This document shows, one piece after another, positions 488 through 31,937 of a DNA stretch of 39,965 nt. Every line of letters starts with the position of its first letter. Position 1 is the stretch's first letter. This DNA is from a bacterium (GTDB lineage: Bacteria > ARS69): contig JALGZR010000043.1 in NCBI GenBank assembly GCA_025774805.1, forward strand, positions 1 to 39,965, written 5' to 3'. Under the pieces are notes generated by a model, which was not told where the DNA came from, did not search any database, and saw only the letters and a program-made list of their open reading frames with translations. The translations under genes were made by a program, and so were the position numbers.

Positions 488-1345
488 TCATTGCAGGTAC
501 GAGCGGAGCTTCTCGCGGTCCTTCCGCTGGAGGATCTTCCGGATGGCGCGCTCCTTGAGCTGACGCACCCTCTCGCGGGTGAGGCCCAGGTCCTTGCCGA
601 TGGCCTCCAGGGTCACGCCTTCCCCCGTCTCGATGCCGTAGTAGTCCCGGAGGATCTTCCGCTCCCGCGGGTCGAGCATTTCCATCGCCTCCCGGAGGTC
701 CCGGGCGAGATCGTGATCCACGACGCGCTGATCCGGCGCCGACGCCTGATCGTCGGTCAGGAGATTCATCAGGGAGACGTCGCCGTCGTCGCCCGCCGGG
801 GCGTCGAGCGACACCGATCGCAGGGTGTAGGTCTGGTGCTCCAGGACGTCCTCCACCGAGAGCTTGAGCTCACCGGCGACCTCCTCCGGCACCGGGCGCC
901 GGCCGAGGGTCTGCTCGAGCGCCTGGACCGTGCGGTCGATCTTCGACGCCTTCCCCGCCCGGTTGATGGGGATGCGGACGACGCGCGTCTGCTCGCTCAG
1001 CGCCTGGAGGATCGCCTGGCGAATCCACCAGATGGCGTAGGAGATGAAGCGGAAGCCCCGGGTCTCGTCGAAGCGCTCGGCCGCCTTGATGAGACCGTAA
1101 TTGCCCTCGTTGATCAGGTCGGCCAGGCTCAGCCCGCGCCCCATGTACTGACGGGCGACGCTCACCACGAAACGGAGATTCGCCTGCACGAGCTCGTCGA
1201 GGGCGGAGCGATCTCCGTCCTTGATCCGGCGGGCGAGGCGCACCTCGTCATCCGGCTTCAGGAGCTCGGTTCGCCGAATCTCCTTCAGATAGATGTCGAG
1301 GGAGCGATCATCGCTCTCGCTGTCGACCAGTGCGTTTCTCGCCAC
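488..1345 (-). CDS. RNA polymerase sigma factor, RpoD/SigA-like, lacking region 1.1
   Basis: This is a sigma-70 family factor of 285 residues. Region 1.2 lies near residues 14-47, ending in LARRIKDGDRSALDELV. Region 2 follows (residues about 54-120, with NLRFVVSVARQY, then LINEGNYGLIKAAERFD and YAIWWIRQAI, the core-binding and -10 recognition helices). Region 3 is around 130-200. Region 4 carries the -35 helix-turn-helix (LEAIGKDLGLTRERVRQLKERA, about residues 245-266). There is no acidic region 1.1 and no non-conserved insert, as in the short primary sigma factors of the Bacteroidetes group. The start is GTG at 1345, preceded by GGAGCACGGA. It lies 58 bp downstream of the degP-like gene on the same strand and may share its transcript. 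Primary or general-stress role cannot be settled from sequence alone. Confidence 0.93.
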   Translation of the reverse strand: MARNALVDSESDDRSLDIYLKEIRRTELLKPDDEVRLARRIKDGDRSALDELVQANLRFVVSVARQYMGRGLSLADLINEGNYGLIKAAERFDETRGFRFISYAIWWIRQAILQALSEQTRVVRIPINRAGKASKIDRTVQALEQTLGRRPVPEEVAGELKLSVEDVLEHQTYTLRSVSLDAPAGDDGDVSLMNLLTDDQASAPDQRVVDHDLARDLREAMEMLDPRERKILRDYYGIETGEGVTLEAIGKDLGLTRERVRQLKERAIRKILQRKDREKLRSYLQ

Positions 1346-2906: not shown

Positions 2907-2968
2907 GGGGTTCTCCTCTCGGGGCGGGAAGCCCCGGCAGGGGGGCCAGCGATTCCTCTCACTGTTTC

Positions 2969-2997
2969 GAAATACCCCGGGCGTGCCCAAAAGTTGC
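2969..2997 (-). promoter_or_regulatory. Possible ECF-sigma-type promoter before the degP-like gene
   Basis: On the minus strand GCAACTT (2997-2991) is followed by 16 bp and TATTTC. This resembles the AACTT -35 core used by RpoE-type sigma factors, which control degP in other bacteria. It is a weak match and overlaps the opposing lpxH promoter candidate. Confidence 0.25.
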
Positions 2998-3942: not shown

Positions 3943-4908
3943 CTACGGCGCCGCCACCTCCGACTGCATGAACCCCGGACGCCAGCCGAGGGAAACGCGA
4001 TGGGTGTCCCCGAGCTCCGAGCTGTCGGAGAACGGGACGAAGGCATAGTCGACCAGGAAGTCGCCGTAGCGCACCCCGAGGCCGACGGCGCCCATCTCCT
4101 CGTCGTAGTTCAGCTTCAGACCTCCCCGGATCGCCACCACCTGGTGGACCCAGAGCTCGGCGCCGAGGTGCCCTCGCACGTCGCTGTCATTGGGAATGCG
4201 CAGATCCGAGGCGAGCAGGAGGCCGCTCAGAACGCGACGCGTGCGGTAGGCGGCGGCCAGCCTCACCCCGAACGGAAGCACGGCGTCCTCCTCCTCGAAC
4301 TTGACCGGAGTCCCGAGATTCGTCGCGGTGCCGGCGAGGACGAGGCCGCGAAGCGGCGTCCGGTAGCGAACGCCGAGATCGGTCGCGAACGAGGTCGCGG
4401 AGAAGTCGTGGATCTTCGAGTAGAGCACCTTGACGGTGGCGCCCATCTCGATCGTGCGCGTGATGCGCCGGCCGTAGGTGAGGCCCCCGGTGAAGTCGTA
4501 GGCGCGGAAGTGTCCGGTGAGAACGCCGACGTCGTTCCGCTCCTCGAGCTCTCCCATGTGCAGCAACCCGACGTGAGCTCCGATGGCGTGTCCCTGCATT
4601 CCCTGGACGGCCGCGAGGTACTCGTAGCGAACGTCGGAGATCCACTCGTTGTGCGTGGAGTGGAACTCACGGCCGGGAACGGTCGAGATGCCCGCCGGAT
4701 TCCAGTGGACGGCGGTGGGATCCTGGGCGACGGCGGCGTACGCCTCTCCCATCGCGGCGGCCCGGGCCCCGATCCCGATCTTGAGGAAGGCGAGGGAAGT
4801 GTCTCCCGGATCGGCGGCGTCCGCGGTCGGCGGCGTCGACGCCCCGATCAGGAAAACGCTCACGATCCCCAGGAATCGGCGGGAGAGGGACTTCACGCGG
4901 GTCGACAT
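3943..4908 (-). CDS. PorV/PorQ-family outer-membrane beta-barrel protein
   Basis: A signal peptide (residues about 1-31, cleaved near ADAADPG) leads into the family signature: FLKIGIGARAAAMGEAYAAV followed by DPTAVHWNPAGIS. This is the hallmark N-terminus of the PorV/PorQ (UPF0164) family, FadL-like barrels that in Bacteroidetes shuttle type IX secretion substrates. The rest consists of alternating beta-strand segments typical of a 14-stranded barrel. At 321 residues it has the normal length, with no extra domain, unlike the second PorV-like gene at 20380-22464. The ATG at 4908 fits the signal peptide. It is transcribed from the promoter at 4977-5006. Substrate or partner is unknown; a role in surface protein export is inferred from family. 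Confidence 0.85.
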   Translation of the reverse strand: MSTRVKSLSRRFLGIVSVFLIGASTPPTADAADPGDTSLAFLKIGIGARAAAMGEAYAAVAQDPTAVHWNPAGISTVPGREFHSTHNEWISDVRYEYLAAVQGMQGHAIGAHVGLLHMGELEERNDVGVLTGHFRAYDFTGGLTYGRRITRTIEMGATVKVLYSKIHDFSATSFATDLGVRYRTPLRGLVLAGTATNLGTPVKFEEEDAVLPFGVRLAAAYRTRRVLSGLLLASDLRIPNDSDVRGHLGAELWVHQVVAIRGGLKLNYDEEMGAVGLGVRYGDFLVDYAFVPFSDSSELGDTHRVSLGWRPGFMQSEVAAP

Positions 4909-10336: not shown

Positions 10337-10366
10337 TTGACGGCTCCCGACCTTCTTCCCTACCTT
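10337..10366 (+). promoter_or_regulatory. Candidate promoter for the sulfatase-like gene
   Basis: TTGACG (10337-10342), an 18-bp spacer and TACCTT (10361-10366). A transcript from here would begin near 10373, upstream of the GTG at 10413 but downstream of an alternative TTG at 10365. Confidence 0.45.
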
Positions 10367-10412
10367 GATCCCGACCTCGCGCCCGCCCGTCCTTCGGGGA
10401 GCCATCCAGACC

Positions 10413-12371: not shown

Positions 12372-12420
12372 CTCAAGCGTCCCCTTTCGGCATCCGATCC
12401 TCTGCATAGAGATGCGCCGG

Positions 12421-12470
12421 CCGACCGACCGGGGGAGAGTGGAGCCCGGCGCCCCCGGTCGGCCGGTCGG
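12421..12470 (+). terminator. Large G+C-rich hairpin after the sulfatase-like gene
   Basis: CCGACCGACCGGGGG (12421-12435) pairs with CCCCCGGTCGG (12452-12462) and the adjoining CCGGTCGG. It starts 50 bp after the sulfatase-like stop codon and lacks a T run, so it may act as a factor-dependent terminator or a 3'-end stabiliser. Confidence 0.5.
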
Positions 12471-12503
12471 GTTGCGCGGATTCACGTCTCTCGGGAGGGG
12501 CCC

Positions 12504-16410: not shown

Positions 16411-16475
16411 CCGTGTTTCTCACCGGGCTCGTCGCGGGCCCCGGCCGCGGCGAAGGTGGGGGAGATCCGCCGGTC
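16411..16475. repeat. Dispersed palindromic repeat, copy C (degenerate)
   Basis: The left arm and centre (CCGTGTTTCTCACCGGGCTCGTCGCG...) match copy B closely, but the right arm has decayed to GGTGGGGGAGATCCGC. It occupies the whole gap between the convergent DUF2079 and histidine kinase genes. Confidence 0.65.
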
Positions 16476-17835
16476 AGCCCGTCGGCAGAAAGATCGAGAA
16501 CCTCGCTCCCTTTCCGATCTCGCTTTCGACGGTGAGATCGGCGTTCATCTTCTGGGCCAGGCGCCTCGCGAAGGCGAGCCCCATGCCCATGCCCCTGTGC
16601 TCCCGGGTCTGGGAGCCGTCGCCCTGGCGGAACGACTCGAAGATGTGGGGAAGCGAGTCGGCGGGGATCCCGGGCCCGTCGTCCTCGACGTCGATCCGGA
16701 CCCACTCCCGGTCGTCTCGCCTTGTCGGCTCGACGCGGATGTGAATCACCGACCCGTGGGGGGTGAACTTCACCGCGTTGTCGACGAGGCAGTCGACGAT
16801 CTGGACCAAGCGGTCCCGGTCGAAGATCGAGGGGGGGATCTCCGTCGCCGTCGTGAAGCGGAGCTCGCGCAGATCGGCGGTGATTCCGGGACGGCGCTCC
16901 TCGTAATAGGTGTCGAGAGAGGCTCGCGCGTCGCCGAGCTCGGCGCGGATCTCCAACTCGTCGTCGAGGAGCTTGGAGAAGTCGAGGACGTTCAGGAGCA
17001 TACCACTCAGCTTCTCCGTCTCCTCACGGACGATCCGGAGATGCTCGAACCGCCGGGACTCCTTCGGCTCCCCCGCGATCAGGCTGTCGAGATACGCGAC
17101 CATGATGGTCAGCGGAGTGCGGAGCTCGTGATTCATGTTGTTGAGGAACTCCGACTTCAACCGGTCGAGCTCCTGCAGGTGCTCGTTGGCCTTCCGAAGT
17201 CGCCGGTTGCTCTCCACCATCCGGTTGTACAGGCCCGTGTTCTCGAGGGCGACGCCGAGGAGGTTGATCGAGGTCTGGAGGGTCTCCAGCTCCAAGGGGC
17301 CGAAGTCCTCGCCCCCCACGCGCTTGCCGAGCGCCAAGAGTCCCAGGAACCTCCGGCGGGCGATGACCGGCACGAAGAGGGCGAGACCGTTGCTCTCGGC
17401 GAGCTCCAGACCGGGGATGGTGCGCAGGTCCTTGAGATCGGAGACGAGCACGGGCGCCACGATTCCCCCGGGACGGGCCGTGAGCCAGCGGGTCCAGAGT
17501 GTCCCGATCGCCCGCGCGATGTTCGGATTCAGACCCTGGCCCCTCACGAGCACCGCGTCCTGCCCCGAGCTCTCGGGCAGAATCCAGAGAGCGGCCTTGG
17601 AGCAGCCGAAGTGACCCAGGATGTTGAGGAGCGCGACGTCCGCGATCTCGTAGAGGTCCATGCGGACGTTCAGCTCGTTGCTGAGCTCCTGAAGAGAGAG
17701 AAGACTGCGCTCACGGCGGGCGCCTCGATCCAGGTAGTCGCGGGCGGACATGTCGACCGGGTCGGTCGCGGGCCTTTCCTCCGCCGGACGGGGCGCCGGG
17801 ATTCCCTCCTTGGAACGACGCCGACTCGGGAACAA
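16474..17835 (-). CDS. Soluble GAF-domain sensor histidine kinase
   Basis: The 453-residue protein has no membrane helix. A GAF-like sensor domain covers about residues 45-205 (including GLALFVPVIARRRFLGLLALG). A short coiled coil leads to the dimerisation/phosphoacceptor domain with His236 in NNMNHELRTPL. The ATPase domain keeps every box: N (CLVDNAVKFTP, about 349-359), G1 (VEDDGPGIP), F (IFESFRQG) and G2 (RGMGMGLAFARRL). There is no receiver domain. It is the last gene of the five-gene operon, starting at a TTG 1 nt after the STAS gene stop, with GGAG in the end of that gene. An internal ATG near residue 29 is an alternative start but lacks a ribosome-binding site. Repeat copy C follows at its 3' end. 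Confidence 0.93.
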   Translation of the reverse strand: MFPSRRRSKEGIPAPRPAEERPATDPVDMSARDYLDRGARRERSLLSLQELSNELNVRMDLYEIADVALLNILGHFGCSKAALWILPESSGQDAVLVRGQGLNPNIARAIGTLWTRWLTARPGGIVAPVLVSDLKDLRTIPGLELAESNGLALFVPVIARRRFLGLLALGKRVGGEDFGPLELETLQTSINLLGVALENTGLYNRMVESNRRLRKANEHLQELDRLKSEFLNNMNHELRTPLTIMVAYLDSLIAGEPKESRRFEHLRIVREETEKLSGMLLNVLDFSKLLDDELEIRAELGDARASLDTYYEERRPGITADLRELRFTTATEIPPSIFDRDRLVQIVDCLVDNAVKFTPHGSVIHIRVEPTRRDDREWVRIDVEDDGPGIPADSLPHIFESFRQGDGSQTREHRGMGMGLAFARRLAQKMNADLTVESEIGKGARFSIFLPTG

Positions 17836-17836
17836 G

Positions 17837-18190
17837 TCAGACTCCGAGCGACTGGCGCGCTTCCTCCTCGGAGGAGACGATCGTCAGGAACTGGGTGAGA
17901 TTCAGGAGCTCCAGGACCGAACGGACCGGCTCCGAGAGCGATGCGAGGACGACGCTTCCCCCCGCGTCCTGGTATTCCTCGGTCAGGGCGAGGAGCACGC
18001 CGATTCCGCTCGAGGCGACGAAGGAGATCCCGGACAGGTTCACGACGAGTCGGCGGGTTCCCCGGCTCCGAAGCGTCCGGCAGAGGGCGACGAACGAGGG
18101 CGCGCTCTTCGCGTCGAGGCGTCCGCTCACGCGCAGCAGCCGAGTGTCTCCCCCCGCATCCTCTTCTTCGATGCGAAAATCAGATCCCAT
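17837..18190 (-). CDS. STAS-domain anti-anti-sigma factor homolog
   Basis: The 117-residue product is a single STAS domain of the SpoIIAA/RsbV type, the phosphorylatable antagonist in partner-switching systems. It has RLLRVSGRLDAKSAP near the N-terminus and LVVNLSGISFVASSGIGVLL, with Ser60-Ser61 at the position of the regulatory serine. The Asp that usually precedes these serines is Ala59. Known members bind an RsbW-like kinase when unphosphorylated and are reactivated by a SpoIIE/RsbU-like phosphatase; both activities are encoded by the gene just upstream. The ATG at 18190 follows GGAGGAGGT, a very strong ribosome-binding site, and overlaps the upstream stop codon by 11 bp, implying translational coupling. 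Confidence 0.93.
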   Translation of the reverse strand: MGSDFRIEEEDAGGDTRLLRVSGRLDAKSAPSFVALCRTLRSRGTRRLVVNLSGISFVASSGIGVLLALTEEYQDAGGSVVLASLSEPVRSVLELLNLTQFLTIVSSEEEARQSLGV

Positions 18191-20369
18191 GCCGGACCTC
18201 CTCCGGGGCATTCAGGGTGATCGGGTCGAATTCCATGATCGTGACGTTTCCTTCCGGCGTGGCCGGGTGGTACTCGGCTCGACTCGTGGCCACCCGGATG
18301 ATCTCGAGCCCGAGGCCGCGCTCTCGGCGACGGACCGCGGGCTCCTGGAAATCGACCGAGTGGTCGCGACGGGGCGCGAACGCGACGCCGTGATCGAGCA
18401 ACACGAAACGTCCCCGCAGGCGATGCGGATTCTCGGCGAGGTCTGTCTCCTCCGCGGCATCGGAAGGACTTCCGACCCACCAAAGATCGAACGTCTCGTG
18501 CTCCCGGTAGCCGTAGCCGTGCTCGACGACGTTCGCGCAGAGTTCGTAGAGAGCGCTCTCGAGGACGTGGATCTCGCGCGAGTTGAGGTCCGTGAGCTCG
18601 GGGCAGTCCGGGAAACGGGAGAGAAGACCGTGAAGCGCCTCCTCCCGCGCCGGCAGCCGGACGTGGTATCCGTGCGCGCGGGCCTCCTCCAGCGCGGTCA
18701 GCGGGCGAACCATGGTGTCACCCGACTCCCCGATCCTCCCCGGCCCGCGGCGATCCGCGGCGGTCTCTCCCGCCGCACCGGAGTCGCCGCCGGTCGGGCG
18801 TGCGGACTCCGCGACCGTCTCCGCATCCCGCGCGATCACGAGCAGCGTCTCGTCGTCGAGGGGAGACTGGTCCCCGACCCACTCCCGGATGTCGTGGCGA
18901 ACGGCGTCGAGGATGGCGGCGCCACCCCCGGCCGCGCTTCTCGCCACCGCCCTCTCCAGGCGGCCGAAGCCGAACTGTGTCCGACCCGACGGATCGAACG
19001 CCTCGTTGATTCCGTCGGTGTACTGGAGCACGGCATCCCCCGGCGCGAGCCGGACCTGCTCGTCGCGCAGCGAACGGGCCAGAGCTCCCCCGCGCAGCGC
19101 ACCGATGGGAATGCCCATTGTCCGGTACCACTCCGCCTTGCCGCCGTGCTCCCGGACCACGAGGAGGGGACTGTGGCCCGCCGAGGCGAACACCAGCCGC
19201 CCGTCCTTCGGATCGAGGATGCCGTAAAACATGGTGATGAACGTTCCCGGTCGGAGCGAATCGCGCAGGTCGTTCTCGAGTCGGACCATGAGCGCGCTGG
19301 GCGACAGCGATTCGCCTCGGAACGCCCGCAACAGCGCCGCGAGCATCGACGTCACCAGACACCCCGCGAGTCCCTTTCCGGAGACGTCGGCGATGGTGAG
19401 TCCGATTCTCCCGTCCGGGAGATCGAAGACGTCGTACAGGTCCCCGCCGACCTCCGCCGCGGCGCGGTGCGCGCCCTGGATCACGAACTCGCCCCTTCGG
19501 ACGTACCCCGAGGGAAGCAGTGAGGATTGGATCTCGCGGGCGAGCTCCACTTCCCGGGAGAGGCGCTCCTTCTCGACGCGCTCCTGCTGCGCGACCTGGA
19601 TCCGGTTCGCCATCTCGTTCATGGTCTCGGCGAGCAGGCCGAGCTCGGTGGGGTCGTTCAGTTGCACCGGGGTCTCCAGATCGCCCCGGCCGATCCGCTC
19701 CAGACCCTCCCGCAGCGCGCCGAGCGGCCGCAGGAGCACCGACAGGAAGAGGAAGACGAGGGCGAGGCCGGCTCCCAGAAGCGCTGCGGTCAGCAGGATC
19801 TGCTTTCGCCGCGCGGCCTCGATCACCCCGTCGACGTACTCGCGGCGCATGGCCACGTACGCGGTTCCGATCGCGTTGCGGGATCCGGGCCGAAAGACGG
19901 GTGCCGCGGCGACGATGATCTCGGCGTTCCCGAGGACCCGCTCCCCTCCGACTGCCTCGATGACGTCCGCCTCGGCGACCAGGTCGGCGGGCAGCTCGTG
20001 GGGCTCTCCGATACGCCGGGCATCGGCGTGCCCGCGGATCGCGCCCTCGAGATCGACGACCGTGGAGAACGCCAGCTCTCCGCGGTGCTTCTGGAGCTCC
20101 GACAGAATGGGGGTGAGGGTGAGCTCGGGAAACTCGCTCAGAAGCGCGCCCGCGCTCATGAGCGCGAGATTCCGAGCCTCGAGAACGAGTCGGGCCCGCA
20201 GCTCGTGCGTCAGCGCGGTGCGGGTGTTCCGCTCACCGAAGCCTCCGACGGCGACGACGGTTCCCGCGGTCAGAAGCGCGGCGACCCCGGATACGATCCA
20301 CCGCAGGCGGATCAGCCGGCGTCGGCCGGGAGCTCGGCCGTCGGACGGGGTCGTCCCGGTTCCTTTCAT
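18180..20369 (-). CDS. Membrane SpoIIE/RsbU-type phosphatase fused to an RsbW-type kinase domain
   Basis: This protein has 729 residues. TM1 (about 22-42) and TM2 (about 193-215) enclose a periplasmic sensor domain. A HAMP linker follows (RPLGALREGLERIGRGDLE). The PP2C/SpoIIE phosphatase domain (about 290-520) has intact metal sites: EVGGDLYDVF, IADVSGKG, ASAGHSPLLV, QYTDGINEAFD and DDETLLVIARD. After a linker rich in Gly and Ala comes a GHKL ATPase domain (about 600-720): ALYELCANVVEHGYG (N box), LLDHGVAF and RERGLGLEIIR. This is the architecture in which the phosphatase that activates a STAS protein and the kinase that inactivates it are one polypeptide. The STAS partner follows with an 11-bp overlap. 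The ATG at 20369 follows GAGGGAGGGAG. Confidence 0.92.
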   Translation of the reverse strand: MKGTGTTPSDGRAPGRRRLIRLRWIVSGVAALLTAGTVVAVGGFGERNTRTALTHELRARLVLEARNLALMSAGALLSEFPELTLTPILSELQKHRGELAFSTVVDLEGAIRGHADARRIGEPHELPADLVAEADVIEAVGGERVLGNAEIIVAAAPVFRPGSRNAIGTAYVAMRREYVDGVIEAARRKQILLTAALLGAGLALVFLFLSVLLRPLGALREGLERIGRGDLETPVQLNDPTELGLLAETMNEMANRIQVAQQERVEKERLSREVELAREIQSSLLPSGYVRRGEFVIQGAHRAAAEVGGDLYDVFDLPDGRIGLTIADVSGKGLAGCLVTSMLAALLRAFRGESLSPSALMVRLENDLRDSLRPGTFITMFYGILDPKDGRLVFASAGHSPLLVVREHGGKAEWYRTMGIPIGALRGGALARSLRDEQVRLAPGDAVLQYTDGINEAFDPSGRTQFGFGRLERAVARSAAGGGAAILDAVRHDIREWVGDQSPLDDETLLVIARDAETVAESARPTGGDSGAAGETAADRRGPGRIGESGDTMVRPLTALEEARAHGYHVRLPAREEALHGLLSRFPDCPELTDLNSREIHVLESALYELCANVVEHGYGYREHETFDLWWVGSPSDAAEETDLAENPHRLRGRFVLLDHGVAFAPRRDHSVDFQEPAVRRRERGLGLEIIRVATSRAEYHPATPEGNVTIMEFDPITLNAPEEVRHGI

Positions 20370-20379
20370 CTCCCTCCCT

Positions 20380-22464
20380 CTACGATCCCGAGCCGAGGAT
20401 CTCCTGGGTGCGGGCGCGCTGCTCACGGGCGCGGGCCAGGTAACCCAGGGTCCTCTCGTCCTGGGGGTCGACCTCGAGCGCCTTTTCCCAGAGGCGGATG
20501 GCGTCGTCCAGGCCACCCCGGGAGAACGTCTCGAGACCGCGCAGCAGGTACTCGCGCTTCAGGTAGTCGGCAACGTTCTGGTAGTCGGGATCCGCGAGCC
20601 AGACGAGCTCCCAGTAGCGCAGCGCGTCCGCCCCCCGGTTCTCCTGCATCGCCTCCATGCCCCTCCGGTAGAGGTCCTCGATCTCCTTGCGCTTCTTGCG
20701 GGACAGTTGGGGAGGCTTCGGAACGGGGGGCCCGGGGACGGTCGGCTTCGGCGCGGACGCCAGTCCCGCCCCCGACTTCGACGCGTCGGCCCGGGCGCGA
20801 GCCGCGGCCGCGGCGGCGGCCGCCTGCTGCTGTTCCGCCCGGTGCAGGCGTGCGATCAGCCCGGCCAGCTCGGGCGCGTTCGCGTCCAGGGCCTGCACGC
20901 GACCCAGCGCCTCTTCGGCATCGGGGAGCAGTCCCCTCTCGATCGAGCGGCGGGCCTGCGCGAGAAACGAGGAGACACGCAGCGCGATGGCGCTCTCCGT
21001 GCGCGCGAGCATCGCCCGCGCTTCCGCGTCGCCGGGAACGAGCTCGAGGATGTCCCGCAGGCGGCTTCGCGCCATCAGGAGATCGTCCCCGGCGAACGCG
21101 TCGAGCGCCTCGGCGAAGAGCTCCCCCACGAGCGTGGTCCGCTCGGCCCGACGATCGCTCTCCTCCCGGCAGCGGGCGAGATCCGCCGCCGCCTCCGGGT
21201 GCCCGGGCGCGAGTCCGAGGACCCGCCCGTAGAGGATCGCCGCTCCCGCGTAGTCCTCGTCGCCCTCCACGAGACGGGCCTTCGCGTGGAGCCCTCGCAC
21301 CTGGAGCTCTGCTGCCCGGGGATCCTCGGGCGCCACCGCCGCCAGCGCCGCCGCCGCGTCGAGCGCCTCGTCGATCCGCTCCTCCACGAGAAGCCGCTCG
21401 GTGCGGGCGACGAGCTCTTCGGCCTGCTCCTCCTGGCGGCGACGGAAGCTCTCGGCGAGACGGCGACGGAACGCCTCCTCCTCCGCCTGCGCCGCCGCGA
21501 GACGAGCCTCCTCGACCGTCGGCCCGAACGCGAACGAGGCGCCGAAGCGATGGACGGGGTCGAGCTCGTTGTCCTCGAACACGTAGTCGAACGCGACCCC
21601 GTGCCACCGGAGACCGGCACCGGCGGTGAGGCTCTCACCGTTCCAGCCCCCGCGCAGAGCGATCACCGGGTGGGGACGCGCCTCGATGCCCGCGTGGAGA
21701 TTCGCGTCGGAGTCCTTCGTCTTCTCGATGTCGAGGGCGCCGAGAACCGTTCCGAACCGGTGCACGGGATGCTCGTAGGCGAGCCCCGCGCGCAGGGCGG
21801 AGGGGTCGGCGACGCTCTCCCGGTCGAGCTTGAGCGAGGGCTCGAGGACGTTGCGCAGGGCGATCCCGACGGAGATCCGGCGCGCCCAGACCTCCTCGCG
21901 GCCCAGCGCGATCGCCGGCCGCGCCTGCACCCCGAGATCGAGACCGACACCCATACCGTCGTACCCGGCGATGCTCTGACGCTGCAACTTGACCGAGCCG
22001 CCGAGCGTCCACGCGTCCGCCACACTCCGGCCGTAGGCGACGGTGAGCTCGGTCTCCGAGTCGTCGAACTCGCCGAGGAGGACGTTCCGATCGTCCCGAC
22101 GCTCGATCTCGTCGACCGCGAAGCGACGGAACACGAGCGCCCCCGTTCCCCAGCGCCAGCTCGGCCAGGCGAACGACGCGTACTGCTCTCCGATGTCCAG
22201 TCCGTAGAGGCTGGCGTGGCTCGCCTGGAACTCCGGGCGGGAAAGTCGTCCGAGGCCGGCCGGATTCCAGATCGGCCCGCTCGCGTCGTCGGCGATCGCG
22301 GCGTAGGCTCCCCCCAGCGCGAGGGCGCGATTGCCCGCTCCGTACGCGAACGTGGAGCGGGCGCCGCCGTCCTCGGAGGCGGAGGCGGGCGCCGCCGAAA
22401 GGAGACCGGCGAGGGTGAGCGCGATGCCCCATCTGCAAGCTGGGGTCGGGTGGATCCGTCTCAT
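20380..22464 (-). CDS. PorV-type outer-membrane barrel fused to a C-terminal TPR domain
   Basis: The product has 694 residues. A signal peptide (about 1-29, ending PASASE) leads into the PorV/PorQ signature: GAGNRALALGGAYAAIADDASGPIWNPAGLGRLS. Barrel strands extend to about residue 315. From about 320 to the C-terminus the chain is helical: a long charged segment (FRRRLAESFRRRQEEQAEELV), several tetratricopeptide-like repeats, an Ala- and Pro-rich linker around 565-600, and a final pair of TPRs (YRRGMEAMQENRGADALRYWE; DDAIRLWEKALEVDPQDERTL). The second PorV gene in the window has no such extension. The ATG at 22464 overlaps the giant gene's stop as ATGA, so translation is coupled. It likely exports or tethers that giant protein; this is inferred from family and linkage. 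Confidence 0.88.
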   Translation of the reverse strand: MRRIHPTPACRWGIALTLAGLLSAAPASASEDGGARSTFAYGAGNRALALGGAYAAIADDASGPIWNPAGLGRLSRPEFQASHASLYGLDIGEQYASFAWPSWRWGTGALVFRRFAVDEIERRDDRNVLLGEFDDSETELTVAYGRSVADAWTLGGSVKLQRQSIAGYDGMGVGLDLGVQARPAIALGREEVWARRISVGIALRNVLEPSLKLDRESVADPSALRAGLAYEHPVHRFGTVLGALDIEKTKDSDANLHAGIEARPHPVIALRGGWNGESLTAGAGLRWHGVAFDYVFEDNELDPVHRFGASFAFGPTVEEARLAAAQAEEEAFRRRLAESFRRRQEEQAEELVARTERLLVEERIDEALDAAAALAAVAPEDPRAAELQVRGLHAKARLVEGDEDYAGAAILYGRVLGLAPGHPEAAADLARCREESDRRAERTTLVGELFAEALDAFAGDDLLMARSRLRDILELVPGDAEARAMLARTESAIALRVSSFLAQARRSIERGLLPDAEEALGRVQALDANAPELAGLIARLHRAEQQQAAAAAAAARARADASKSGAGLASAPKPTVPGPPVPKPPQLSRKKRKEIEDLYRRGMEAMQENRGADALRYWELVWLADPDYQNVADYLKREYLLRGLETFSRGGLDDAIRLWEKALEVDPQDERTLGYLARAREQRARTQEILGSGS

Positions 22465-25400
22465 CTCACCACGGCCACCTTTCGAAGATGCCGTTCGCTC
22501 GCACCGTCGCCGTAGCGGACCTCGATCTCCGCCAGGTAGACGCCGTTGACGACGACCGCGCCCCGTCCGTTGCGCCCGTCCCACGTCGTGTCCTGGTGGA
22601 GCCCGGCGACGCGGGGCTCGTCTTCGAGAATCGTGAGGACCTTCTCGCCCCGCAGGGACAAGAGGCGGAGCGTGACGCGTCCGTCGCTCGGGAGGTAGAA
22701 CGCGAACGTGGTCACCCCCCGGCCCGCGGGGAAGGGGTTCGGGAAGTTCGACCAGCTTTCGGCCAGGGTGACTCCGCTGAAGTTCCCCGCCTGCGACCAG
22801 AACGGGAACGCCAGCCCGGCCTCCGCTTCCACCGAGACCGCCAACAGTGCGCTCTGCGGCGGGACGACTCCCATTCCGTCCGCGTCGCAGCCGAGGCGGA
22901 CGCTCGAGACGTCGGACCCCTCGCGCGTGGTCATCCGGATCTCGAGCTCGACGGGATCCCCCGGGGGGAGGCGAAGCGTGTCGGGGAACGAGATCCGGCC
23001 CTTGATGTCGAGCGGATCGAGCGGTCCCGTCTCACCGCGCGACTCCCCGTCGAGGACCGCCGTCAGCCGGGTGGCGACGGCTCCCAGCGGGTACTCGAAC
23101 CCGTCCCGGTCCGCGGCCCTCAGATCCACGTGGGTCACCAGGATCTCCCCCGAAGTGGCCGGAGCGGGATTCCCGAGCCGGAGTCGCAGGGTCGGAACCT
23201 CTCTCCCGTCCGCCGCGAGCACCGGCGGCATCGAGCTCTCGAAACCCACCTCCAGCTCCCGGGGAGGGGACTCGAGTCGAGTGAGCCCCGAGCTGAGAGG
23301 GAACTCGTTCCCCGAGTCGGGCAGCGCCGGAACCGGCGTACCGAGGTTGGAATCGATCGTGACCACTCCCGCCGCGGGCAGAACCATCTCCAGGAACCCT
23401 GCGGGCGCCGTCGCCTCCAGGTCGACCTGCACCGTGAGCGACTCGGCCGCCTGGGCTCCCACCGTCATTCCGGGAATCGGCACGACGAAGCCGTCTCCTG
23501 AGGCGGGGAGGTCGGTGAGCTCGCCGAGCACCTCCGCGCCCCGGAGGACCCGGACCCGATCGAGGAAGGTCCGGGGGACGAGAGGCTCGTCCCTCTCGTT
23601 CCGGAGCCTCCAGGCGAGCTCGTCGCACCGGATGGCGCTCGTTCCGATCCCGCCCGGGTGGGAGAGCACGAGGCTCATCGGCTGGATGTCGGTCTCCCCG
23701 ACGAGCACCGCCCCCGGCATCGACGGCGTGCCCGCGACGAGGATGGACGTCGCCGGCCTCTCGACGGTGACCGGGTCGCCGAGCGCCGGAGAGGGCGTCA
23801 GGATCACGTCGACCGGCGCCCCCGTGTTGGCGTCACGGGCGTCGACCGCCGCCGAGTCCGAGAGCTGGAGCCGGAACATTCCGAGCATCGCGCTGTCGGC
23901 GATGGCGCCGAGGACCTCGATTCGCACCGGCGTGTTCACGGGACACGACACGAACGGCGAGAGCGAGAGGGTGAGCGTCGAATCGTCGTCCCCGCCGACC
24001 GCGCGATCGAGCAGGATCTCCTGAACCGGCCCTCGGACCCGGATCCGGTCGAGACGCGTTCTCGGATCGGCGATCCCGACACCTACGCCGTCGACGATGT
24101 CCACGTCGAACCGGGACAGGCGCACGTCGGACGCGAGCTCGTACGGATCCGGATTGAGCAGATCGAGCGTGAGCAGCGTGACGTCGGACTGACCCTGCGC
24201 CCCCGTCCTCGCTCCGCTCGTGACGCTCGCGACGTCGAGCTGCGTCGCCTCCGCGACGATCCGCGCCAGCCCGGAGGAGATCGGCCAGCTGTCACCCTGG
24301 AGGAGGGCGATCACGGGGGCGCCGCTCGTGGCGTCGTCCACCGTGACCCACGTCTCGTCGACCACCCTCACGCGGAACGTCCCGACCGTGGTGCTGTCCG
24401 CGATGTCCAGCGAGAGGTTCAAGGTCGCCTGACCCCCGGGAGGATCGTCGCTCTCGACGAGAAGCGGGGTCGCGAGCGTCAGATCCACCTCGTCCCCCGA
24501 CGTCTCGAGGGCGGTCTTCTCGAGGTAGACGACCGAGCCCTCCTTCACGACCACTCGGGAGAGGAGGTCGGCCGGGACGACTCCTCCGCCCCCCTCTTCG
24601 GAGATCTGGAGTCGGAGGCCGAGGACGCGGACCGCCGAGCCGCCGACGCCTCCCGGATTGGCGAACGTCAGGGTCAGTGGAACGACGTCCTGCTGTCCGC
24701 GGCTGATCGAGAAGGGCATGGACTCCACCGCGAAGAGCTCGACCTCGTTCGCCGCGACGAAGACCTGGTGCTGGTTGGACGTGGCCTCCAGGGACTGGCG
24801 AGGCGGACCGACCCCCGCCTCGAGTCCAGACACGGATCCCGAGAGACGGACCGGGCCGGAAGACGCGGCGCGGTAATCCCAGGTGAACGTGCTCTCCGCG
24901 CCGGAGGCCAGATCGAAACTGGCGGGCACGGGGCCGGTGAGCAGCTCGAGTACCCCGAGGCCGGACGGGACGAGGGCCGACGGGGTGATCCCGGTGATCG
25001 TCGAGTCACCGTCGTTGCGCGCCGTGAGGCGGACCGCCACGATCTGGTCGATGGTGCTCGCGGGAGGATCGATCGTCAGGCTCGCGAGCAGCGCCGCGGT
25101 CGAGAGGAGAATCGAGTTCGTGTTCGCGACCGATTCGTCGAGGGGCCCGTCGTTCCCCGACTCGACGGTGATCCCTGCCACGGGGATCGAGAGGCGCACC
25201 GTGGAGGAGTCGGTCGGGGTGGCCGAAGAGGTCACCGCCACGAAGAACCGGGCGCCACCCGGGGGGATCGCCGTATGGAGGAGGGGGTGGCTCCACCGAT
25301 CCCCGACCGGCGCCAGCGCCCCGAGATCGGTGTCGTCGCCCCCCGCGTCGAAGGTGCCGTCGCCCCCGTCCCTCCAGAGCCGCACGTCGGAGAGATCCGC

Positions 25401-28400
25401 GGGGAGCGCCGTCCCCAGGTTCTCGACGAGGAGGCCGGTGAGGACGTCCGCGGCGTAGCCGTTCCCCGGAAACGCGAGATCGAGCGCGGACACGGGACCC
25501 TCGTTGGGGCCGAGCGTGGCCTGCGGCGCGTCGAATCGGCCGATCTGAAGGGCGACCATGCCGTCGACCGTCTGCCGCCCCCCGGAGTCGAGAGGCCAGT
25601 CGGCGGCGAGCGAGGTCGGGTCGGCGAAGCCCAGCGCCGGGGGGCCGGCGATGTCGACCCCGAGCCGGTCTCCGTCCGCCGCGCCGCTGAGGGACACGTC
25701 TCCCGTCACGAAGAGCATCCCGCTCGCGCCGGCCGTGATCAGGTAGTCGAGGTCGGTGAACGAGGCCGCGCCGTTGACGAACGTCGCGACTCCGAGGGTC
25801 GAGTCGTCACCGCCCGGCTCCGGGACGCCGTCCCCGTCGTCCCCGTGCAGCACGGCCCGGACGATCTCGGCGTCGAGTTCGGCGACGCTGCCGCTCCCCT
25901 CGGTCCGGTTCGCGATCTCGAGGGAGGTCAGCGTCTTGTCGATCAGGTAGGTGTTGTCCCAGGCGACCTGCAGCAGGAGCGCGTCGTCTCGCCCCGGCGG
26001 GACCGTTCCCGATTCGAGCGTCACGGCGGAGAGCGTGACCCGATCGACGGTGCTGATCGTCTGCGTGGTCGGTCCGATCACCGTCGCGTCGACGGGACCG
26101 TCGTTCCCGCTCGCCACCCCGATCCCGGGATCGGGCGGACCGGGAACCGCGAGATGGACGGTCCGTCCCACCCCGGCGAGATCGGCCACGTCGCAGGTCA
26201 CGAAGATCCGGACCCCCTCCTCCGCGGAAACGGGTAGGGAGAGGCCGGTCATCTCCCAGCGATCCCCCGTGAACGCCATCTCGCCGAGAAGCGTGTCGAC
26301 TCCCTCGTCGAACGCGCCGTCCCCGTCGTCGTGCCACGCCTCGAGCCGCGAGAGATCGTCGCCCTGCTCCGCCGATCCGAGGTTGAGGACGTCGAGCCGG
26401 GTCAAGACGTCGTCCTCGTAGCCGTTCGCCGGCACGAGGACCGTGAGCGCGACGTTCCGACTCGTTCCGGTCTGCAGGTTCGTCCCGCCGAGATCCTCGA
26501 TACCGACCTGCTTCGCCGACATGCCGTCGACCGGGAACGAGCCGGGGGGATCCAGCGGCCAGCTTCCGGTCACGTTGATGGTCCGCGAGAACGTGAACGC
26601 CCCGTCGTCGGCGACCGTGACGTCGAGCACGTCCCCGTCGCGCGCCCCGAGGGAGGCACCCGACTTGAGGATCAGCGTCACCGTGTCGGCGGGGGCGATG
26701 CGCGTGTCGAGACCGCCGAAGACCGCCCGGCCGTCGACGAACGTCGTGGGAGCGGGAAGAGGGGCGTCGCCGTCCGTCCCGCCCACGTTCGACTGGATGA
26801 ACTGCAACATCGTCAGGTCCTGCCAGTCGGCGTCGAGCTGAGCCGGCGTCCCCGCACCGGTCGTGGCGTTCGTGAGCGTGAACGTCCGAAGCGTCTCCGC
26901 GACGGCGGACACGTTGACGAGCCACACCCGGAGGATCTCCTCCGGATCCGCCCCGGGGAGGAGATCCCCGCCCGTCTGGACTCCGGCCGAGACCGCAATC
27001 GTTCCGGGCGGCGGCAGGATCGTCATCGTTCCGGAGTTCCCGACCGCCGCGTCGAGCGGGCCGTCGTTCCCGCTCGCAACCACGATCCCGGTCGAGCTCG
27101 GGGACTCGAACCCGAGACGGATGGTCCGTCCGGGAACCGCGGCGGAGTCCACGTCGATCGAGACGAAGAACCGCCGCCCCGCGGGGGGGAGGGCCGTGGA
27201 CATCCCCACCAGCTTCCACAGGGATCCGTTCCACGCGGCCGGGCCGAGGAAGACGTCCCCGGCGTCGCCCCCGAACGCGCCGTCGCCGTCGTCCCGCCAG
27301 ATCTCCACGGCCGCAATGTCCGCCGGTCCCGCGGTTCCGCGGTTCACGATCCGGACCTCCTGCAGGGTGTCGGTCACGTAGCCGTTGCCGGGGAGCACCG
27401 CGTCCATCGCGAGCACGCCGGACGCGCCCGCTCCGACGCCGCCGCTCGGAACGTTCGTCATCGTGATCTGGGCGGACGACATCCCGTCGACGATCACCTC
27501 TCCCGGCGGGGCGACGGGCCACGGGTTCAGAAAGAGGGCGGGAAGATCGAGAACGACGGACGCGGGCCCGGCGATCGCGAGGTCGAGGGCGTCCCCGTCG
27601 CGGGCCGCCGGGGGAAGCGTGGTGGCCAGATGGAAGGAGAGGAGCGCGCCGGAGGGCAGCGACTCTCCGACACTCGGGAACGTCACCTCGCCGCCGAGGG
27701 CCGCCGCGATGTCGATCAGCGTGTCGTCTCGGGTCTCGAACGCGCCGTCGCCGTCGTCGCGCCAGAGGGACACCGAGCCGAGCTCGGCGTCGAGCTGGTT
27801 CTGGTTCCCGGGGCCGGACGTCGTGTTCTCGAAGAGGAGCGACTGGACCACGTAGGTCTGCGGGTCGGAGTTCGCGAGCGCCACCGACATCAGATGGATC
27901 TCGCTCGCCCCCGGATGCGCCGTCGCGGTGGGCTGCGAGGCCAGAACCGTGACCCCGGTCGGCATCTGGACGTTCACGACGGCGGAGTCGGCGTGATTCG
28001 ACGGGTCCGGGTCGTGCGTGATGGCGCCCGAGATCGAGGCGACGTTGGTGAGCGCGGTGCCGCCGGTCCCCGCATCGACGATGGTCTCCAGAACGAGAGT
28101 CGTCGACTCGGCGGGGGCGAGAGCTCCGACCGTCCACTCTCCCGTGCTGTCGACGTATCCACCCTGACCCGGAAGCGCCGCCTCGAGCGTCAGACCGGGG
28201 GGGAGGATGTCCGTCGCCAGAATGCCGCGCGAAGAGTCCGGGCCGTCGTTGGCGAGCGTGACCGTGAAGTGGACCTTGCCCCCCTCGACCGGCGCGACGT
28301 CGTCGGCGATCTTCCACGTTCGGAGATCGGCGGTGCGGACGGTGACGGCCGAGGAGTCGACGTCGTTGGAGGAATCCGGATCACCCTGGTCCGTCGCCGC

Positions 28401-31400
28401 GATCGCGGCGACGTGGACGAGAGTGGTTCCCCCCGTTCCGGTGTCGATCGTGCCCGTCAGAGCGAGCGCCAGGGAGTCACCCGCCGTCACGCCACCGACG
28501 GTCCAGACCCCGGATCCGTCGTCGTAGGACCCCTGGCCGTACGTCGCGGACTGGTACAGGAAACCGGCGGGACAGGCCGCGCTCACCTCGACGCCGGCCG
28601 CATCGTCCGGCCCCGTGTTCCGCAGGAGGATCGAGAAGGTGACCGTGTCCCCTTCGTCCGGGTCGACGGGATCGGCGCTCTCGCTCACGGCGAGATCCGC
28701 GCTCTGGACCAGGATCTCCGCTGTCCCGGTGTTGTTGATCACGTTGAGGTCCATCGCGCTCGACGCGGTCACCGTGGCCGTGTTGACGATGCTCGTTCCT
28801 CCCGTCCCGCCGTCGACCGTCGCGTCCAGGAGGATCGTGGCACTCGCGAGCACCGGCACCGCCCCGACGGTCCACAGGCCGCTGGCCGGCTCGTAGATCC
28901 CCTGGGTCGGCGTGGCCAATGCGAAGGAGACTCCGCCCGGAAGGACGTCGGTGATCTCGACGCCGGTGGCGGGATCGGGTCCGAAGTTGGTGACGGTGAC
29001 GGTGTACCGGATCGGGTCGCCTTCCTTCGGATTCGGAACGTCCACGCTCTTGGTCACGCCGAGATCGGCCCGGTCGAGGACGATGACGGTCGAGACGTCG
29101 ACGGCGGCGCTGTCGGCATTGTTGCCGAGGTCGGGGTCCGCCTGGTCGGCGGCCGTGATCGTCGCGACGTTTTCGATGTGTTGACCCGCCGTCCCGTTGT
29201 CCACGACGCAGGAGAGAAAGAGCGTCGCCGTGTCGGCGGGGGCGATCGACCCCACGTCCCACCGCCCGGTGGAGTCGACGTAGGTTCCCGGGAACGCGAC
29301 CCCGGACTGGAACACGAGGCCGGCCGGAACGACATCGGTGACCTGGACCCCGGTCGCCTCGTCGGGCCCCTCGTTCGTGACGGCGACCGTGAACGTCACC
29401 GGCTGGCCGACGGAGGGGGCCGGATCGTCGACGCTCTTTTGGACGGCGAGATCGGAGAGCGGCACGGTGACCGCCGCGGACGTCGTGTCGTTGGTCGCGA
29501 CCGGGTCGTGGAGGTCGCGGGCGGAGAAGCCGGCCCGGTTGACGATCGTCGCGCCGCCGGCGCCGGGGTCCACGGACACGAGGACGGCCAGGCTCTCGAC
29601 GGTTGCCGAGTCGAGGGTCCCGATGGTCCAGAGGCCGGTGTCCCGGTCGTAGGAGCCGCGGGTCGGGATGTCGCTCACCCACGTGACACCGGCCGGGAGG
29701 GAGTCGGCGACGACGACTCCCCCGGCATCGTTCGGTCCGAGGTTCTCCACCGTCACGTTGTAGGTGAAGGTCTCGCCCACGTTCGGGGAGGAATTGCCCG
29801 CGGTCTTGGTGACGGCGAGATCGGCGGACTGGACCACGAGGTCGACGGAGGCGACGTCGTTGCCCGCGAACGGGTCGGGCTGGCTCGAGCCGGAGATCGT
29901 CGCCGTGTTCGTGATCGTGGATCCGCCGGTGCCGGTGTCGACGAGGACGTCGATGTCGAGCCGGACGCTCTCGCCGACGCCCAGCGGCCCGACGTCCCAG
30001 ATCCCGGTGACCTCGTCCCAGGAGCCCCGATCCGCGCCGGCGCTCAGGAGAAGCACCCCGGCCGGCAGGAGGTCGTGCACCGTGACGCCGTCGGCGGCGT
30101 TCGGCCCCTCGTTCGTCAGGAGGACCTCGTAGCCGACGCTGTCCCCCTCCCGCGGGTTCTCGTCCGTGACGGTCTTCGCGAGAGACAGGTCCGCGCTCTG
30201 CACGGTGACCGAGGCTTCGTCCTCGTCGTTCGACGACTCGGGGTCGGCAACCTCCGACCCGGAGATGGTGGCGACGTTCACGAGCGTCGATCCTCCGGTT
30301 CCCGAGTCCACCGTCGCCACGATCCGCAGGAAGACGGAGGGACTGCCGGCCTCGAGAATTCCGGGATCCCACGCGGAGGAGCTGTCGTCGAACGTTCCCT
30401 GACTCGCGGAGGCGTAAGCGAACGTCAGACCGTCGGGGAGGACGTCCTTGACCTCGATCCCGTAGGAGAGCGTGGGCCCCAGGTTGCGGAGATCGACCGT
30501 GAACTTGACGCTGTCTCCCTCGGCGGGGTTCGGGGTGTCGACGTACTTCGTCACCGCGAGATCCGCGAGCGGCACGAGGACCCCGGCGGAGTCCGCGTTG
30601 TCCGAATCGTCCACCTCCGGCGATCCGATCCGTATGATCGACGCGCCGTTGACGAGCCACATCCCCTCGGTCCCCTCCTCGACCGTGGCGGACAGGAGGA
30701 GGGAGGCGGAGTGGCCGGCCTTGAGCGCGCCGACGGACCAGAGGCCGGTGACGTCGTCGTAGGTTCCCTGCGAGGGCTCGTCGTACGAGTACCTGAGCCC
30801 GAGAGGCAGCTGATCGAGGACCTCGATGCCCGCGGCGTCCTTGGGTCCGTGATTCATGACCTCCACCGTGAACAGCGCGTCCTCGCCGGGGGTGCGGATC
30901 GAGTCGTCCACCGTCTTCATCAACCGGAGGTTCGTGCTGCCCTCGGGGACGATGAAGACCGACGCCCAGGCCTGGTCGTTCACGACGACGGTGTCCATCG
31001 GACTCGACTGCGTGCGTTGGGCGATGTTCGTCACCGTGGATCCGCCGGTGCCGGGGTTCGCCCGCGCCAACAGGCCCAGGGTGGCGGTCGCGCCCACATC
31101 CAGGGATCCCACCCACCACAGGCCCAGACCGGGATCGTAGAAGCCCTGGGTCCGGCTGTTCGTGACGTAGCTCAGACCGAACGGAACCTGATCCCAGAGA
31201 ACCACCTCGGTCGCCCCCATCGGGCCGTGGTTCTTCGCAGTGATCGTGAAGAGCACCGAGTCCCCCTCGGCGATCAACTCGTGGCTCGCGATCTTCCCGA
31301 CGGCGATGTCGGCGTGCTCCGAAGTCTCGATGATCAGTCGGGGGCCCTGCTCATCCGCTCCCCGTTCCGTCTCTCCCTGCCGGGCCCAGTACTCGGTCTC

Positions 31401-31937
31401 GTTCCCTTCGGAAGTCGGTCGCAGCAACAGACCGTGGTTCGGGACGATCGATCCCTGCCACTCCTGCACGAGCCCGGTCACGTCGACGGATAGCGGACCG
31501 TTCGTATCGGGCGTGAACGTCCCGTAGACCGTCATGGAGTCGAACTCGGTACCGATCAGGTCCCAGTCCGCCACCGACTCCGTCCACCCGCGCGTGATCC
31601 GGTGGACCAGAACCGGGCTTCCGGAGTCGTCGGTGGACTTGACGCTGACCGCCAGCGTGGCCTGGACGATCGTCGCGCCCCGGGGCAACGAGGAGAGGTC
31701 GAACCGGATCGCGGGGCGCTTGTTGTCGCCCTCCTGGTTCCTCCCCCGGAGCGTGTCCTCCCATCCGTGGACCTCGGAGGGGGCCGCCTCCTCCAGCCAC
31801 GTGTCGTCCGTGGCCGAGAAGAGGTGAACTCCGGCCCGCGCCTGCGACGCGGATCCGCAGACAGATACGATGCAGAGAAAAGGAAACAGCGCGCTACATA
31901 GCGAGAGCTTCGCCGGGCGGACGGTGGAGAGGACCAT
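22461..31937 (-). CDS. Giant secreted repeat protein: DNRLRE-like, nine DUF11 repeats, FlgD-like C-terminus
   Basis: This 3158-residue protein begins with a signal peptide (about 1-35, ending QARA). A DNRLRE/CBM96-like domain follows (about 39-205; DDTWLEE, RPAIRFDLSSLP, GLLLRP). Residues about 209-1320 form nine DUF11 repeats of about 123 residues, each starting like ADLAVTK and containing N.GP, a D.LP.G segment, LW.VG and GTGGS.. near the end. Residues about 1380-2200 carry five Asp-rich loops of the form W.DDGDGAF and recurring SGNDGP and VDGM motifs. More beta-sandwich segments follow. The last 95 residues (NFPNPFPAGRGVTTFAFYLP ... WDGRNGRG ... NGVYLAEI ... RKVAVVR) are the FlgD-Ig/type IX-like sorting domain found on surface proteins of this bacterial group. 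It is the first gene of the operon. The exact ligand or role (adhesion, matrix) is unknown. Confidence 0.93.
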   Translation of the reverse strand: MVLSTVRPAKLSLCSALFPFLCIVSVCGSASQARAGVHLFSATDDTWLEEAAPSEVHGWEDTLRGRNQEGDNKRPAIRFDLSSLPRGATIVQATLAVSVKSTDDSGSPVLVHRITRGWTESVADWDLIGTEFDSMTVYGTFTPDTNGPLSVDVTGLVQEWQGSIVPNHGLLLRPTSEGNETEYWARQGETERGADEQGPRLIIETSEHADIAVGKIASHELIAEGDSVLFTITAKNHGPMGATEVVLWDQVPFGLSYVTNSRTQGFYDPGLGLWWVGSLDVGATATLGLLARANPGTGGSTVTNIAQRTQSSPMDTVVVNDQAWASVFIVPEGSTNLRLMKTVDDSIRTPGEDALFTVEVMNHGPKDAAGIEVLDQLPLGLRYSYDEPSQGTYDDVTGLWSVGALKAGHSASLLLSATVEEGTEGMWLVNGASIIRIGSPEVDDSDNADSAGVLVPLADLAVTKYVDTPNPAEGDSVKFTVDLRNLGPTLSYGIEVKDVLPDGLTFAYASASQGTFDDSSSAWDPGILEAGSPSVFLRIVATVDSGTGGSTLVNVATISGSEVADPESSNDEDEASVTVQSADLSLAKTVTDENPREGDSVGYEVLLTNEGPNAADGVTVHDLLPAGVLLLSAGADRGSWDEVTGIWDVGPLGVGESVRLDIDVLVDTGTGGSTITNTATISGSSQPDPFAGNDVASVDLVVQSADLAVTKTAGNSSPNVGETFTYNVTVENLGPNDAGGVVVADSLPAGVTWVSDIPTRGSYDRDTGLWTIGTLDSATVESLAVLVSVDPGAGGATIVNRAGFSARDLHDPVATNDTTSAAVTVPLSDLAVQKSVDDPAPSVGQPVTFTVAVTNEGPDEATGVQVTDVVPAGLVFQSGVAFPGTYVDSTGRWDVGSIAPADTATLFLSCVVDNGTAGQHIENVATITAADQADPDLGNNADSAAVDVSTVIVLDRADLGVTKSVDVPNPKEGDPIRYTVTVTNFGPDPATGVEITDVLPGGVSFALATPTQGIYEPASGLWTVGAVPVLASATILLDATVDGGTGGTSIVNTATVTASSAMDLNVINNTGTAEILVQSADLAVSESADPVDPDEGDTVTFSILLRNTGPDDAAGVEVSAACPAGFLYQSATYGQGSYDDGSGVWTVGGVTAGDSLALALTGTIDTGTGGTTLVHVAAIAATDQGDPDSSNDVDSSAVTVRTADLRTWKIADDVAPVEGGKVHFTVTLANDGPDSSRGILATDILPPGLTLEAALPGQGGYVDSTGEWTVGALAPAESTTLVLETIVDAGTGGTALTNVASISGAITHDPDPSNHADSAVVNVQMPTGVTVLASQPTATAHPGASEIHLMSVALANSDPQTYVVQSLLFENTTSGPGNQNQLDAELGSVSLWRDDGDGAFETRDDTLIDIAAALGGEVTFPSVGESLPSGALLSFHLATTLPPAARDGDALDLAIAGPASVVLDLPALFLNPWPVAPPGEVIVDGMSSAQITMTNVPSGGVGAGASGVLAMDAVLPGNGYVTDTLQEVRIVNRGTAGPADIAAVEIWRDDGDGAFGGDAGDVFLGPAAWNGSLWKLVGMSTALPPAGRRFFVSIDVDSAAVPGRTIRLGFESPSSTGIVVASGNDGPLDAAVGNSGTMTILPPPGTIAVSAGVQTGGDLLPGADPEEILRVWLVNVSAVAETLRTFTLTNATTGAGTPAQLDADWQDLTMLQFIQSNVGGTDGDAPLPAPTTFVDGRAVFGGLDTRIAPADTVTLILKSGASLGARDGDVLDVTVADDGAFTFSRTINVTGSWPLDPPGSFPVDGMSAKQVGIEDLGGTNLQTGTSRNVALTVLVPANGYEDDVLTRLDVLNLGSAEQGDDLSRLEAWHDDGDGAFDEGVDTLLGEMAFTGDRWEMTGLSLPVSAEEGVRIFVTCDVADLAGVGRTVHLAVPGPPDPGIGVASGNDGPVDATVIGPTTQTISTVDRVTLSAVTLESGTVPPGRDDALLLQVAWDNTYLIDKTLTSLEIANRTEGSGSVAELDAEIVRAVLHGDDGDGVPEPGGDDSTLGVATFVNGAASFTDLDYLITAGASGMLFVTGDVSLSGAADGDRLGVDIAGPPALGFADPTSLAADWPLDSGGRQTVDGMVALQIGRFDAPQATLGPNEGPVSALDLAFPGNGYAADVLTGLLVENLGTALPADLSDVRLWRDGGDGTFDAGGDDTDLGALAPVGDRWSHPLLHTAIPPGGARFFVAVTSSATPTDSSTVRLSIPVAGITVESGNDGPLDESVANTNSILLSTAALLASLTIDPPASTIDQIVAVRLTARNDGDSTITGITPSALVPSGLGVLELLTGPVPASFDLASGAESTFTWDYRAASSGPVRLSGSVSGLEAGVGPPRQSLEATSNQHQVFVAANEVELFAVESMPFSISRGQQDVVPLTLTFANPGGVGGSAVRVLGLRLQISEEGGGGVVPADLLSRVVVKEGSVVYLEKTALETSGDEVDLTLATPLLVESDDPPGGQATLNLSLDIADSTTVGTFRVRVVDETWVTVDDATSGAPVIALLQGDSWPISSGLARIVAEATQLDVASVTSGARTGAQGQSDVTLLTLDLLNPDPYELASDVRLSRFDVDIVDGVGVGIADPRTRLDRIRVRGPVQEILLDRAVGGDDDSTLTLSLSPFVSCPVNTPVRIEVLGAIADSAMLGMFRLQLSDSAAVDARDANTGAPVDVILTPSPALGDPVTVERPATSILVAGTPSMPGAVLVGETDIQPMSLVLSHPGGIGTSAIRCDELAWRLRNERDEPLVPRTFLDRVRVLRGAEVLGELTDLPASGDGFVVPIPGMTVGAQAAESLTVQVDLEATAPAGFLEMVLPAAGVVTIDSNLGTPVPALPDSGNEFPLSSGLTRLESPPRELEVGFESSMPPVLAADGREVPTLRLRLGNPAPATSGEILVTHVDLRAADRDGFEYPLGAVATRLTAVLDGESRGETGPLDPLDIKGRISFPDTLRLPPGDPVELEIRMTTREGSDVSSVRLGCDADGMGVVPPQSALLAVSVEAEAGLAFPFWSQAGNFSGVTLAESWSNFPNPFPAGRGVTTFAFYLPSDGRVTLRLLSLRGEKVLTILEDEPRVAGLHQDTTWDGRNGRGAVVVNGVYLAEIEVRYGDGASERHLRKVAVVR
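27970..31313 (-). repeat. Array of nine diverged DUF11-coding repeats
   Basis: The coding repeats have a period of about 370 bp. They are clearly homologous in protein but diverged in DNA, so this looks like an old array rather than a recent amplification. Confidence 0.85.

Follow-up and report, generated by a model that had tools for sequence, protein, structure and literature searches.

In Flavobacterium johnsoniae the gene of the giant protein SprB is directly followed by the gene of its cognate shuttle SprF, and some cargo-shuttle operons of this organism also encode a PorE-like protein, a proposed cell-wall anchor of the complex (PMC12618676). In Porphyromonas gingivalis the type IX secretion system (T9SS) CTD protein PorA relays a surface signal to PorXY-SigP (PMC7712824). 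Partner switches, such as SpoIIE/SpoIIAA/SpoIIAB, RsbU/V/W, Rv1364c, SypE-SypA and BtrU/V/W, are made up of a PP2C phosphatase, an RsbW-type kinase and a STAS substrate. STAS outputs beyond sigma factors are known (PMC8256260, PMC10120452).

The stretch of DNA analyzed here, the window, is 39,965 nucleotides long and equals contig C229 of its genome (G000) in full. From the sequence alone an earlier note had read a five-gene operon in it, and this reading holds: on the minus strand between 31937 and 16474 all five reading frames are open, GC3 lies at 0.82-0.90 in every one of them and codon-position GC supports each (Table 1). The four junctions were read directly in the sequence just as they had been given, i.e. 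an ATGA overlap of the giant's stop and the PorV start (22461-22464), a gap of 10 nt between PorV and SpoIIE (20370-20379), an 11-bp overlap of SpoIIE and STAS (18180-18190, if STAS starts at ATG 18190, upstream of which GGAGG is found) and a single nucleotide between STAS and the histidine kinase (17836).

Table 1. Coordinates of the operon genes and of a neighbouring gene trio in the window.
Feature	Position	Strand	Description
Giant surface protein	22461..31937	-	3158 aa; Sec-type signal peptide, DNRLRE, DUF11, stalk, C-terminal sorting domain
PorV/PorQ-family barrel with C-terminal TPR	20380..22464	-	694 aa; signal peptide
Membrane phosphatase/kinase	18180..20369	-	729 aa; Cache-like, HAMP, SpoIIE-type PP2C, HATPase_c_2
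STAS-domain protein, anti-sigma-antagonist type	17837..18190	-	117 aa; 124 aa from upstream ATG 18211
GAF-HisKA-HATPase histidine kinase	16474..17835	-	453 aa; TTG start at 17835; variable, non-core
Barrel-only PorV	3943..4908	-	
HtrA-like protease	1404..2990	-	trypsin and PDZ
Sigma-70-family factor	488..1345	-	

The likeness to SprB-SprF lies in the arrangement, since in both cases the gene of a large T9SS surface protein stands directly before that of an outer-membrane shuttle, in the operon a probably dedicated one. The parts differ: SprB-SprF has a PorP/SprF-like shuttle and a type B CTD, whereas the operon has a PorV/PorQ-family shuttle with TPR, a FlgD-like CTD and a phosphoswitch. The pair is therefore not of the SprB/SprF type B kind, as its shuttle belongs to the PorV family, and no operon protein matched an NCBIfam model of the type B CTD. 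PorA-PorXY-SigP is a two-component system with an ECF sigma factor; in contrast to the operon it has no PP2C/STAS and is not encoded in one operon with cargo and shuttle.

The signal peptide of the giant is visible in the sequence, and profile searches placed a DNRLRE domain at residues 44-203 and found nine DUF11 repeats. These are followed by a stalk of about 1700 aa (about residues 1341-3040; 22818-27914, minus strand) without any Pfam match, and by a C-terminal FlgD/T9SS-type sorting domain (residues ~3060-3158). Residues 3060-3155 show a weak similarity (E 6e-4) to that part of NF033707 which represents the C-terminal region of PorU; FlgD_ig (PF13860) matches homologous giants, two of four above the cut-off, and Por_Secre_tail matches one homologous giant below it. 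Hence the giant has both marks of a T9SS cargo, a signal peptide and a C-terminal Ig-like sorting domain. Its stalk and C-terminus together (residues 1341-3158) are 23-49% identical to operon giants of other phyla, and the N-terminal parts of the operon giants diverge (DUF11, beta-helix, Big, cadherin). WRDDGDG-like acidic motifs recur in the stalk. As to the secretion machinery, SprA (TIGR04189) scored above the cut-off in the window's genome and in 11 of 13 genomes overall, with sub-threshold matches in the remaining two (G001 and G033), and PorU (NF033707) did so in 10 of 10. GldM (TIGR03517), a model for which there was no positive control, was silent in all genomes searched.

The second protein had been called an exporter in the earlier note, a term that does not fit, as PorV is the cargo shuttle of the T9SS. 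It scored 100.9 bits against NF033709 (PorV_fam; cut-off 90), and in an AlphaFold2 model (mean pLDDT 86) it forms a barrel at residues ~78-312 and a TPR superhelix at residues 317-689. The best PDB matches in Foldseek, 8gl6_F (E 5e-11) and 6h3i_F, are PorV chains of the T9SS translocon. It stays below the equivalog cut-offs of PorQ (53.7 vs 220 bits) and PorVQ2 (44.2 vs 325), and a Pfam profile search gave no match to canonical PorV, PF19572. Profile score and barrel fold thus place it in the PorV/PorQ family, outside the canonical PorV, PorQ and PorV2 equivalogs. Canonical T9SS PorV (PF19572 / 6h3i_F) shares the barrel fold and the family and differs in that the TPR is missing there. This C-terminal TPR arm of 370 aa was absent from the description in the earlier note. 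In a barrel of the PorV type both termini are in the periplasm, and therefore the TPR arm is probably periplasmic as well. Since a separate barrel-only PorV adjoins PorU on contig C31 of the same genome, the PorV of the operon comes in addition to it.

On the signalling side, profile searches bore out the families previously named for the operon (FlgD/T9SS-like cargo, PorV family, SpoIIE, RsbW-like kinase, STAS and GAF histidine kinase), except that SpoIIE phosphatase and RsbW-like kinase turned out to be one protein. In this protein two TM helices flank a predicted periplasmic Cache-like domain (residues ~45-175), followed by HAMP, the SpoIIE PP2C and a C-terminal RsbW-like HATPase_c_2. The match to sCache_3_2 is below the Pfam cut-off in the window and above threshold in the homologue L105, and the structure model (pLDDT 80) has the Cache-like region between the TM helices. 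The closest PDB fold is 3ke6 (Rv1364c RsbU-RsbW). In nearly all aligned operons the metal-binding aspartates of the PP2C, the serine at the phospho-acceptor position of STAS and the N- and G-box of the kinase are kept (L101 is partial and was not counted), and the HK histidine of the histidine kinase is conserved in the alignment. Judged by these catalytic residues, PP2C, kinase and STAS qualify as a predicted partner-switching set of the RsbU/V/W type. The fusion of phosphatase and kinase is shared with Rv1364c (RsbU-RsbW) and SypE (PMC10120452). Unlike the known switches, the sensor is a membrane Cache-HAMP and not PAS or REC, and the operon has no sigma or anti-sigma target; the earlier note was correct that no sigma or anti-sigma gene lies within it.

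The same note had let its case depend on the gene order not being unique to this assembly. The order recurs in independent genomes, which rules out an assembly artefact. Two independent MAGs of the same family keep it, G001 with the five genes together on a single contig (L050; 16,171 bp, JAGQIB010000208.1, labelled Gemmatimonadetes HKST-UBA01, L138) and G003 with the five genes spread over two contigs. G003 also shows signs of two operon copies, both broken by contig ends (L051, L052, L078, L215). All functions are found in the same order in a Krumholzibacteriia record (L142) and in L144, where an ORF of its own, placed between SpoIIE and STAS, encodes the kinase domain, and G033 has the arrangement too (L121). 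Of the 82 genomes in the phylum to which G049 belongs, 76 have an orthologue of the phosphatase of L119 at E <= 1e-120; at 1e-50 there are 79 matches, generic PP2Cs among them. Among 20 loci sampled there, PorV-TPR lies directly upstream of SpoIIE in all 20, a homologous giant precedes it in 19, and a recognised STAS follows SpoIIE in 18; of the two STAS exceptions, L203 stops at a contig end and L193 has conflicting simple gene calls.

In all 20 loci sampled from Zixibacteria, the phylum that includes G013, SpoIIE comes after PorV-TPR, and most of these loci also have STAS and a kinase. When 132 Zixibacteria genomes were counted, SpoIIE was found on the same strand at most 6 kb downstream of 97 of the 113 TPR-extended PorVs (at least 520 aa) vs none of the 26 barrel-only PorVs, several of the exceptions among the extended ones being near contig ends, and 79 of the genomes had a linked PorV-SpoIIE pair. 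The phosphatase therefore goes with the TPR arm and not with PorV generally; a generic PorV-SpoIIE association is ruled out by the barrel-only proteins. Of all observations, this link argues best for a possible role of the TPR arm in signalling. No SpoIIE or STAS neighbours were found at the other PorV loci of the window's genome.

The placement of the kinase domain changes between lineages, from C-terminal on SpoIIE (window type) to a STAS-HATPase protein encoded separately (Zixibacteria type A) or a position N-terminal to Cache-HAMP-SpoIIE (type B). Because the order recurs elsewhere and the set stayed together while this domain was fused or split in various ways, the comparison strongly supports that the genes form one unit. 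Judged from gene order, the conserved core is four functions, with the histidine kinase outside it: HisKA class and sensor domains of this protein differ between lineages, and no histidine kinase follows STAS in type B loci, among which L119 has an ObgE-type GTPase in its place. ATGA coupling of giant and PorV occurs in 27 of 49 operons (the unrelated barrel-only PorV of Table 1 left out), chiefly in those of the window, Krumholzibacteriia and Zixibacteria types. The distance matrices for giant, PorV, SpoIIE and STAS correlate with one another at rho 0.77-0.89 (0.58-0.78 within Zixibacteria alone), which fits co-inheritance and is no proof of interaction.

Taken together, the operon is real and conserved, its component families are known, and as a system it is apparently undescribed. 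The earlier note knew of no described system with this exact set, and in the open-licence papers searched we found no description of a partner switch that shares a locus with a T9SS cargo and PorV, nor PorV, SpoIIE and STAS together, nor Zixibacteria in connection with type IX secretion; the sole joint mention of this secretion type and partner-switching was in the title of a reference. This absence is indicative. Nor did we find a description of the set and its near-core operon conservation in entire uncultured phyla. With this operon the T9SS, which is most familiar from Bacteroidota, is joined to a partner switch without an evident sigma-factor target, and the ways in which bacteria sense or control the display of giant surface proteins would become testable.

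What the operon does can be proposed from its parts. We hypothesize, and give it an even chance, that it encodes a dedicated T9SS cargo-shuttle-partner-switch module, whose phosphatase/kinase faces the periplasm and couples the state of the envelope to STAS phosphorylation. The giant would be exported by Sec and then cross the outer membrane via the T9SS translocon of the genome, using the FlgD-like domain at its C-terminus. PorV-TPR, which is encoded next to the giant and which by analogy we infer to carry it, would most likely receive it as a dedicated shuttle or anchor, with the TPR arm left in the periplasm. There the Cache domain of the membrane protein would sense the periplasm, perhaps by reading the TPR arm or the occupancy of PorV, and set the balance of PP2C phosphatase vs RsbW-like kinase on STAS. 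STAS, aided in this lineage by the GAF histidine kinase, would pass this state on to synthesis or export of the surface protein, where both the target of the output and the direction of control are presumed. In this way the module may, as the earlier note suggested, gauge or gate display of the giant. Tentatively, the shuttle itself could be the sensor, its periplasmic TPR arm reporting loading, arrival or loss of one specific giant cargo to the phosphatase/kinase in the inner membrane. We hold this to be rather doubtful; if true, outside-in signalling across both membranes would adjust the production of that cargo.

The signal may instead have nothing to do with the TPR arm. Cache domains usually bind small molecules, and the periplasmic sensor domain of Chlamydia RsbU has, judging by the title of a reference in PMC8256260, been examined for a ligand-binding role connected with the TCA cycle. 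The Cache domain could thus sense a small periplasmic ligand or a redox or nutrient state, and the switch would merely decide on the production or export of giant and PorV, like BtrU/V/W of Bordetella for type III secretion, where BtrU and BtrW affect secretion itself and BtrV works post-transcriptionally (PMC8256260). Such a gate, working from inside to outside, is possible though on the unlikely side, and alone it leaves unexplained that the phosphatase is restricted to TPR-extended PorVs (97/113 vs 0/26). Improbable in our estimate is another reading, in which the signalling genes govern a wider programme (e.g. the physiology of the envelope in general, or a sigma factor encoded elsewhere) and share a transcript with giant and porV only to ensure joint production. 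It draws on G004, where phosphatase/kinase and STAS stand at the site syntenic with the window (L077, G004:C466, 482-2855) with uridine-kinase-like and dehydrogenase-like neighbours as in the window, 72 bp behind the dehydrogenase-like one. Neither giant nor PorV is present at this site, an uncoupling that arose in nature, and giant copies lie on other contigs; the signalling genes may therefore have another job. Several sigma-70-family genes are also present in every genome tested. Against the wider programme stands that the association, with re-fusions of the kinase domain, is conserved across several phyla, and perhaps also that SigB/F/G-type sigma factors gave only sub-threshold matches in 10 genomes, although the model used (TIGR02980) has a strict cut-off. 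The module with its own cargo and shuttle is the reading that we prefer.

Outside the operon, the window holds a sigma-70-family factor, an HtrA-like protease and a barrel-only PorV together (Table 1). A similar trio is found in G002 (L058), a genome without the operon, and by this comparison it looks like a separate conserved cluster; the sigma factor of the trio is thereby ruled out as a dedicated target. The window's genome also has a second giant (L213, G000:C68, 7885-13071, minus strand), with ~51% identity over the conserved stalk, and no PorV-TPR or signalling genes were recognised beside it. Like the site in G004, this giant speaks against a strict unit. A PorV-STAS neighbourhood in Ozemobacter was rejected as a member, its neighbours being an MshE-type ATPase and a shikimate dehydrogenase. 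Two of the homologous loci have unusual proteins: L119 encodes a SpoIIE variant of 1213 aa with a C-terminal TPR extension (9396-13037), and in L121 (7066-15529) a PorV ORF of 1247 aa precedes SpoIIE, STAS, HATPase and one more protein of SpoIIE-HATPase make-up.
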